Assembly: GCA_019120295.1 (NCBI GenBank)
Contig: DWVI01000009.1
Location: 44,161-108,160 of the forward strand
Source: Candidatus Onthoplasma faecipullorum
Lineage (GTDB): Bacteria; Bacillota; Clostridia; Christensenellales; UBA1242
Direction of reading: 5' to 3'
DNA: 64,000 nucleotides
Part shown: piece after piece, positions 50,730 through 53,969 of the stretch
How the letters are laid out: every line of letters begins with the position of its first letter
How positions within the stretch are numbered: position 1 is the stretch's first letter
Translations under genes and position numbers: made by a program
Notes under the pieces: model-generated
Seen by the model: the letters and a program-made list of their open reading frames with translations, nothing else
What the model was told of the DNA's origin: nothing
Database searches by the model: none

Positions 50730-50936
50730 ATGTTTAACAAATTTTTTGGTGGCAACGACTGCGGTTGCAACAACGACTGCGGATGCAACACTGGTTGCAA
50801 TGATTGCACTTGGTTAATAGTATTGATTTTAATATTATGCAATTGCGGTTGCAAAGTTGACCCTTGCTTACTTATAATAATCTTATTAATCTTATGCGGC
50901 TGCGGCTGCGGTAAAAAAGACAACTGCGGTTGCTAA
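50730..50936 (+). CDS. Small Cys/Gly-rich hydrophobic protein (15 Cys in 68 aa)
   Basis: RBS AGGAGG at 50720-50725; MFNKFFGGNDCGCNNDCGCNTGCNDCTWLIVLILILCNCGCKVDPCLLIIILLILCGCGCGKKDNCGC. Confidence 0.8.
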   Translation: MFNKFFGGNDCGCNNDCGCNTGCNDCTWLIVLILILCNCGCKVDPCLLIIILLILCGCGCGKKDNCGC

Positions 50937-51125
50937 CAGATAATAAAAGCTAAAAACACATCAACTTTATTTACTGCCACATAAGATTTTCCCCCAACCT
51001 ATTGGAAAGGGAGCAATGAGGGGAAATACCCATAGGGTGTCCCCTCATAAGAAGGAGCAAACAAGCAAAAGGCTTATGGTTGCAAACAAAGTGCGCAACC
51101 TAGCAAAAGTGCAGTTTGCTCCGCG
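50897..51125 (+). other. Insert unit E1: second copy of host gene 3' end plus structured RNA-like segment
   Basis: Bounded by near-identical copies of the host gene end. Segment 50976-51125 contains a junction-complementary 13-mer and hairpins 51016-51048 and 51054-51122. Confidence 0.75.
50898..50947 (+). repeat. Direct repeat copy 1 (functional C-terminus of the Cys-rich gene)
   Basis: 45/50 identity to 51127-51176; all coding differences synonymous. Confidence 0.9.
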
Positions 51126-51126
51126 T

Positions 51127-51176
51127 GGCTGTGGCTGCGGAAAGAAAGACAACTGCGGTTGCTAATAAATAATAAA
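51127..51176 (+). repeat. Direct repeat copy 2 (GCGCGKKDNCGC* downstream of the insert)
   Basis: 45/50 identity to 50898-50947. Confidence 0.9.
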
Positions 51177-52929: not shown

Positions 52930-53730
52930 ATGCGCGTGTGCAATTTAGCAAGTGGAAGCAGTGGAAACTGCACATATATTGAAAGCAAGCAGGCAAAGAT
53001 TTTAATTGACAATGGAAAACCGCTTGCTTATGTTTTAAATGCCCTTAACGAATTAGGGGTTGCACCAGATAGTATTGATGCAATACTAATCACTCACGAA
53101 CACAGTGACCACATCAAAGGAATAGAAAAATATTCGCGTTCGTTTTCCACTCCAATATATGTGCACAATGAAATTAAAGAAATTATCAAAAATCAAATTC
53201 ATGTTGATAGTGAACTCTTTAACTTTTATGATAGTGATTTTTACATCAAAGATTTACATATACAACCATTTCCACTTCCACATGATAGCAAATACTGCGT
53301 TGGATATAGAGTTGAAGAAGAAGACGCCGTCGTTTCCGTTTGCACCGACCTTGGTTTTTTCAGTGACGAAACTTTTGAAGCAATCAAATCTAGTGCTCTT
53401 GTGTTTTTAGAAGCAAATTATGACCCAGAGATGTTAATGTCCTACCCTAACTATCCAATATTTTTAAAGCGAAGAATAAATGGACCAAAAGGTCATTTAT
53501 CTAATATAAATTGTGCAAAAGCAATTGAACGATTGGTGCACGCTGGCACTCGGCTTGTTGTGTTATCGCATATTAGCGAACATAGCAACACTGTTAACCT
53601 AGCCGTTAACACAATCGCAAATTATTTAGAAAGCAAAAACATAATTCCAAACGTTAACATTCGCCTAGACATCGCCCACCATGAAAAGCGCGGAACAATA
53701 TTTAAAATCACCCCAACTAGCCAAAAGTAA
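52930..53730 (+). CDS. MBL-fold hydrolase, WalJ/YycJ-like
   Basis: MRVCNLASGSSGNCTYIES, ITHEHSDHIKGIE. Confidence 0.88.
   Translation: MRVCNLASGSSGNCTYIESKQAKILIDNGKPLAYVLNALNELGVAPDSIDAILITHEHSDHIKGIEKYSRSFSTPIYVHNEIKEIIKNQIHVDSELFNFYDSDFYIKDLHIQPFPLPHDSKYCVGYRVEEEDAVVSVCTDLGFFSDETFEAIKSSALVFLEANYDPEMLMSYPNYPIFLKRRINGPKGHLSNINCAKAIERLVHAGTRLVVLSHISEHSNTVNLAVNTIANYLESKNIIPNVNIRLDIAHHEKRGTIFKITPTSQK
53673..53730 (+). repeat. Direct repeat copy 1 (functional C-terminus of the MBL gene)
   Basis: 56/58 identity to 53912-53969; both differences synonymous. Confidence 0.93.
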
Positions 53731-53911
53731 TACTTAATTTAAAAATGGGCGATGTCTTTTTGGGGGTCCCCATAAGACAAAGTTGCAATGGGGTTTAACT
53801 CGGGGTCCCCACGAGAGTCGAAGAACTCGCAGTGGGGAAAAGGAGCAACCGATTAAAGGTTCAGGCACCGCAGTGTAACAAGGTGACTAACAATAATGAG
53901 TGTTGCGACGC
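53673..53911 (+). other. Insert unit E2: second copy of host gene 3' end plus structured RNA-like segment
   Basis: Bounded by near-identical copies of the host gene end. Segment 53746-53911 contains a junction-complementary 12-mer, hairpins 53768-53793 and 53807-53837, and a 3' domain 53841-53911. Confidence 0.75.
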
Positions 53912-53969
53912 CGCCCATCACGAAAAGCGCGGAACAATATTTAAAATCACCCCAACTAGCCAAAAGTAA
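53912..53969 (+). repeat. Direct repeat copy 2 (AHHEKRGTIFKITPTSQK* downstream of the insert)
   Basis: 56/58 identity to 53673-53730. Confidence 0.93.

Follow-up and report, generated by a model that had tools for sequence, protein, structure and literature searches.

Small palindromic repeats are common in bacteria, and how most of them move is an open question. The double-hairpin elements, or GC clusters, of fungal mitochondria are GC-rich paired hairpins scattered in an AT-rich genome; IS200/IS605 elements (Y1 transposases of the HUH type) have hairpin ends and internal guides of a few bases that pair with the cleavage site, and are not known to make a target duplication; and in group I introns a short internal segment, the internal guide sequence (IGS), pairs with both sides of the junction (P1/P10). 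CGTC-tagged REPs are single hairpins of 20–40 bp with 8–9 bp stems, are located downstream of genes, and have no known dedicated transposase (PMC3733652). The nearest system in the literature surveyed is YPAL (RU-2) of Yersinia, a short non-coding palindromic mobile element that is not AT-rich and is flanked by variable duplications of 3–26 bp (PMC2229807).

The element described here was found in a 64,000-nucleotide stretch of Candidatus Onthoplasma faecipullorum DNA (the window), and it is a family in a genus of small-genome gut Clostridia, with dozens of copies. It recalls the fungal mitochondrial GC clusters in having GC-rich hairpin pairs in an AT-rich genome, although those clusters are organellar and we know of no ~50-nt duplication or antisense breakpoint copy in them. 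With YPAL it shares internal inverted repeats, target duplications of variable length, and insertion beside dyad symmetry (PMC2229807). However, the duplication here (T) is of about 30–65 nt and is accompanied by a ~14-nt antisense copy of the target (t′), whereas the consulted text on YPAL mentions no inverted breakpoint copy, the two being compared by description (PMC2229807). Like the CGTC-tagged REPs the element is palindromic and lies 3′ of genes, and its end (..GACG) corresponds to CGTC in reverse complement, but it is a ~105-nt double hairpin and the REPs are without a long target duplication or t′; identity with them was rejected since hairpin size and number differ and just the GACG/CGTC end agrees.

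The first insert, E1 (50897–51176), is a GC-rich double hairpin between duplicated 3′ ends of a gene for a Cys-rich peptide, with the following parts.

50730–50936, + strand: host gene for the 68-aa Cys-rich peptide, present in 33/34 genus genomes, with weaker matches elsewhere in the family
50888–50896, + strand: L_end, the gene bases immediately left of the breakpoint
50897–50947, + strand: T1, the gene-preserving target copy (end of the reading frame, stop and early 3′ UTR), 45/50 against T2
50948–50975, + strand: spacer x, which separates T1 from t′ and has no copy found after T2
50976–50988, + strand: t′, a 13-nt antisense copy of L_end plus T_start
50989–51125, + strand: body E (covariance model match at 51007–51124, 61.6 bits; 98% in G026 C24)
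51016–51048, + strand: hairpin H1, a variant of ATGAGGGGA..TCCCCTCAT
51054–51122, + strand: hairpin H2, GGAGCAAAC..GTTTGCTCC, with an inner hairpin GGTTGC/GCAACC
51126–51176, + strand: T2, the second target copy, beginning at the breakpoint

The duplication and the two hairpins, both reported in a first-pass annotation of the sequence, are present as described; the copies (50898–50947 and 51127–51176) are 45/50 identical and lie 229 nt apart. The 301-nt region has fold z-scores of −5.5 (+ strand) and −5.0 (− strand), and since these are similar, foldedness alone is no proof of an RNA. The t′ sequence GCCACATAAGATT, taken in reverse complement, agrees with the joined junction AATCTTATG|TGGC at every base (13/13) but with the present upstream copy at 12/13, as the annotation had remarked, and the ortholog in the sister species G026 accounts for the difference. 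There the element is at the same place (98%), t′ is CACAGCCACATAA and the gene reads ATCTTATGTGGCTGTG. From this comparison the ancestral t′ probably matched AATCTTATG|TGGCTGTG perfectly over ~17 nt, and in the present genome (G000) the upstream gene copy has probably changed since from TGT to TGC; the better fit to the joined junction arises because the upstream copy has mutated. Both t′ and T2 have drifted in this older insertion, and are therefore not under strong constraint.

Could chance have produced the antisense match and the duplication at E1, in intergenic DNA that is rich in repeats? Intergenic DNA here is AT-rich, and palindromes are numerous in the genome. However, in the shuffling test, which the annotation had listed among the grounds for giving up its reading, dinucleotide shuffling of the insert produced the 13-nt match to the joined junction in none of 5000 trials (9/1000 reached the observed score against the present upstream junction), and the same rule holds in dozens of elements. 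We regard chance as a negligible explanation.

A second insert, E2 (53673–53969), follows the same plan, with TGGGCGATGTC antisense to GACATCGCCCA across its breakpoint.

53673–53730, + strand: T1, the 3′ end of an MBL-fold gene (52930–53730); the G026 site is empty and single-copy
53746–53756, + strand: t′, TGGGCG|ATGTC, antisense across the breakpoint 53672|53673 (0/1000 shuffles)
53757–53911, + strand: body, with two H1-type hairpins and one H2 (model match 53799–53911, 57.4 bits)
53912–53969, + strand: T2, the second copy of the MBL-fold gene end

DNA searches identified related inserts elsewhere in the genome (gene names at insertion sites being read from the sequences rather than from database searches): 3′ of a DegV-like gene (C1:35.5 kb) and of a PPDK gene (C3:68.3 kb), before a metallophosphatase gene (C2:81.6 kb), ahead of a TatD-like gene (C2:69.9 kb), and at tRNA-Arg (C1:136.8 kb), tmRNA (C2:34.9 kb) and other tRNAs. 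With the covariance model described below there are at least 24 copies in this genome. The catalogue of copies covers the stretches around matches in MAG assemblies and is not complete. The E1 site is occupied in G026, but insert-free sites are present there for E2 and for the DegV-like, metallophosphatase, TatD-like and tmRNA insertions, and the inserts are therefore mobile. Mobility had been proposed from E1, and the dispersed copies, the empty sites in the sister species and the target duplication all bear it out. Another hairpin module, TTTGTAATCG-stem-CTTCATTTAT, is repeatedly found next to elements and near the tmRNA terminator (L022, L024, L078, L080, L098), and its outer stem often matches the adjoining gene end.

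An alignment and covariance model were built from 20 bodies. The model, a search of the kind the annotation had recommended, recovers E1, E2 and relatives across the genus, and places the element in 33/34 genus genomes, a count not independent of the training set, as well as in 33 genomes outside the genus, from other genera and families in its order. A search of Rfam with the element at standard and permissive thresholds gave no match. Bacteroidales and other phyla were left out of the family, as the H1+H2 model is at best weak or partial there. We note that Bacteroidales MAG contigs (L127, L151, L158, L105) contain H1-like GGGGTCCCCACAAG..GCAGTGGGG copies, with H2 not seen; some are in tight tandem arrays, apparently within coding sequence and with short flanking direct repeats.

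The stems covary strongly, with 457 double-change cells versus 137 in shuffled alignments (113 distinct sequences), and the signal is lost when stem partners are slid by 1–3 columns. In 21/26 bodies the + strand is the better folded of the two. However, the well-aligned helices contain 23 G-U and 22 A-C mispairs; these near-equal counts give no indication that an RNA strand has been under selection, and they weaken the argument from folding energy. The unpaired segments of H2 and the 3′ end of the element are conserved.

All of the clear cases in the family have the order L–T1–x–t′–E–T2, with L inside a gene and the sites at gene ends and at tRNA, rRNA and tmRNA genes. T1 leaves the host gene whole, x is a short spacer, and T2 starts at the breakpoint, where E joins. 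The duplication covers about 30–65 nt; t′ is 10–18 nt (~14 nt), is antisense to L_end plus T_start, and is centred on the breakpoint; and the body is about 96–140 nt (~105 nt), with the two hairpins and a preferred 3′ end ..GACG. The breakpoint is usually 7 nt into t′, and in 18 of 23 events it falls 6–8 nt into the t′ complement. Complement and t′ lie 44–50 nt apart in ten events, 62–63 nt in two and 76–88 nt in seventeen, so that the usual spacing is about 48 or 82 nt. Examples include the DegV-like t′ CATATC|TTCGACTAC (15/15), those at tRNA-Leu in G012 (GACGC|ACAAGAC, 12/12), tRNA-Arg in G026 (GGAACC|ATTAGT) and 5S rRNA in G018 (TCGTCTC|CAACCAA), and the TatD-like AGGAGAA|AATTTTGAT.

For curated duplications with a matching t′, 0–3% of about 65 control flank windows each match as well as t′ does. 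We also scored 106 model-located elements in the stretches around matches, which are model-match loci unfiltered for t′ and include model-building bodies, hot-spot loci and sites common to several species. A t′ score of ≥10 was found in 33 of the 106 versus 2.9 expected with swapped flanks, although because of the shared sites, hot-spot searches and training bodies in the set these are not 33 independent events. A T2 score of ≥16 against upstream sequence was found in 34 of the 106, versus 0.7 expected. The junction-spanning antisense segment first seen at E1 thus follows a rule that holds across species. About two thirds of the model-found elements have no recognisable t′; these may have lost it by decay, have entered in another way, or have landed in other palindromes. 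Several elements are inside another dispersed palindrome, GTCATTGCGAG...GTGGCAATCTC (L280, L195, L207, L184, L221). Alignments to the empty G026 sites, made to see which of T1–x and T2–R is the native continuation, did not score above shuffles.

The layout of the units bears on whether the insert is an excised RNA, as the annotation had supposed, or a self-splicing one, in which T1–x–t′–E would be a group I-like intron and t′ the internal guide that aligns L and T2 for ligation. The pairing of t′ with L_end and T2_start is what an IGS does in P1/P10, and removal of 50897–51125 restores the reading frame. Against this, T1 and x are target-derived rather than constant intron sequence, and the gene end is already complete through T1, so excision is unnecessary. 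Many insertions are also antisense to the host gene (e.g. L046, with tRNA-Leu on the − strand and E on the +). At tRNA-Leu, tRNA-Arg, tRNA-Ser, the metallophosphatase gene and the TatD-like gene the unit is 5′ of the gene and antisense, and the host transcript cannot splice it out. The body is merely two hairpins, with neither a group I core nor an Rfam match, the 5′ part of the unit comes from the target, and G-U and A-C mispairs are equally frequent. Excision by splicing, a part of the annotation that is not supported, is very improbable.

Informative evidence on the origin of t′ comes from sites that have been used repeatedly. At least 12 species carry an insertion at the 3′ end of the DegV-like gene and others, G026 among them, have the site empty; in 12 species t′ matches the occupied species’ own version of the gene, synonymous differences included. 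The 3′ end of the Cys-rich gene is likewise an insertion hot spot (G000/G026, G004, G011/G020, G015, G023), and tRNA-Leu, tRNA-Arg, 5S rRNA and PPDK genes are also repeatedly used. Between non-sister species, body identity is 0.479 at the same site versus 0.474 at different sites, values at which saturation is possible, and within one genome there are bodies 90–91% alike at unrelated sites with unrelated flanks. Because near-identical bodies lie at unrelated sites, and same-site bodies are no more alike than others, t′ is not inherited with E; apparently it is copied from the target on insertion.

The same observations complicate a model in which the element is RNA-guided, t′ (~14 nt) being a 5′ guide on an H1/H2 scaffold that pairs across the target, with the DNA cut mid-guide and the RNA copied in by a reverse transcriptase. 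The arrangement is guide-like, with t′ directly before H1 and the breakpoint near its middle, the + strand is the better folder, and self-targeting of the intact L–T1 site would account for tandem arrays. But a t′ that is site-specific while near-identical bodies occupy unrelated sites requires the guide to be rewritten at every jump, and the mispair counts and the Rfam result also count against this model. A reverse transcriptase domain is present in 8/34 genus genomes versus 33/34 for the element, and no TnpB-type nuclease (PF07282) is over the cut-off in any of the 34 genus genomes, and the element was on this ground not assigned to the TnpB/Cas12f-type OMEGA systems. We consider RNA guidance unlikely.

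Nor do the candidate movers follow the element, and Y1 transposase, reverse transcriptase and TnpB-type domains were rejected in this role because their occurrence is out of step with it. The element resembles IS200/IS605 in its hairpins and in a short internal segment that pairs at the site, but a domain search for Y1 transposase (PF01797) found none in G000 or G026, and membership of IS200/IS605 or of RAYT-mobilised REPs was rejected on this ground. IS200-type Y1 transposase genes are present in some species of the genus (L163, L164, L166, L170); they have their own terminal hairpins and look like separate IS200-type insertions, unrelated to the element. The one reverse transcriptase of this genome sits in a cassette (L245 1365–4850; G000:C1:195.8–201.0 kb) with a 136-aa Avd-like ORF, the 351-aa reverse transcriptase and a 585-aa protein whose end is lectin-like; the cassette looks like a diversity-generating retroelement (DGR). 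In G012 a 65-nt direct repeat (L241, 875 and 2525) beside a reverse transcriptase gene is probably the template/variable repeat pair of another DGR. In the stretches around matches there is no autonomous copy between long direct repeats, the best match being a DGR-type repeat.

Tandem T–x–t′–E units are present in six genomes (G005, G006, G011, G015, G020, G031). Some arrays end in T followed by a t′-like sequence alone (G014, G017) or by t′ and H1 only (G009), and these partial units suggest that writing would proceed from t′ towards H2. There are also mosaic arrays with several H1 copies. Arrays of this sort might be expected if the elements were passive products of replication, GC-rich palindromes stalling forks in an AT-rich genome and being spread and amplified by fold-back and template switching with no dedicated enzyme; stem covariation would then reflect palindrome correction rather than selection. 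The equal G-U and A-C counts and the insertion of elements within other palindromes fit such an origin, as do the tandem and partial units. However, the unpaired segments of H2 and the 3′ end are conserved, and unrelated bodies reuse the same sites, which points towards specific machinery. The fixed length and centring of t′ and its two preferred spacings also count against it, and we consider passive spread quite unlikely. These last features are more like enzyme geometry than plain template switching too, and suggest that a dedicated enzyme is involved.

We think it somewhat probable that E1 and E2 belong to a single family of mobile DNA elements, small and non-coding, that spread by copy-and-paste and are inserted by template-switching DNA synthesis. 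Extension of a DNA strand through T would be followed by brief inverted copying at the breakpoint, which gives t′; a switch to an E donor would allow E to be copied, and synthesis would resume at T_start, thereby duplicating T. An enzyme would select the sites and determine the two spacings. Failure to resume would leave T–t′ or T–t′–partial E, and repetition or unequal exchange would yield (T–x–t′–E)n arrays. As the new T1 keeps the host gene whole, the insertion would be tolerated. The observed order of parts supports this template-switch reading, the switches themselves being inferred; no microhomology was established at the switch points. More tentatively, and with less than even confidence, these may represent a new class of mobile element in which a ~14-nt, cut-centred antisense copy of the target is written into every new insertion. 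The mover would be an enzyme not yet described, which sets its distance from the target complement at about 48 or 82 nt, and the copy may serve as a fresh guide for re-insertion in the same gene, giving rise to arrays and repeated occupation of orthologous sites.

Being multi-copy and non-coding at unrelated places, with target duplications and empty sites in relatives, the element agrees with a broad definition of MITEs and small palindromic repeats, and it broadly belongs with small palindromic mobile repeats. It was rejected as a classical MITE, as it has two internal hairpins without terminal inverted repeats and no autonomous copy in the stretches around matches. A limited search of the open-access literature turned up no element in which a ~50-nt duplication accompanies a breakpoint-centred antisense copy; the element appears undescribed, and we found no known mobile element reported to carry such an antisense target mark. 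These insertions record their own history, in the inverted breakpoint copy, the fixed geometry, the empty sister sites and the repeated hits in the same genes, and this makes the question of how they are mobilised directly testable. They may reveal an unseen mechanism of mobility or a target-copying enzyme.
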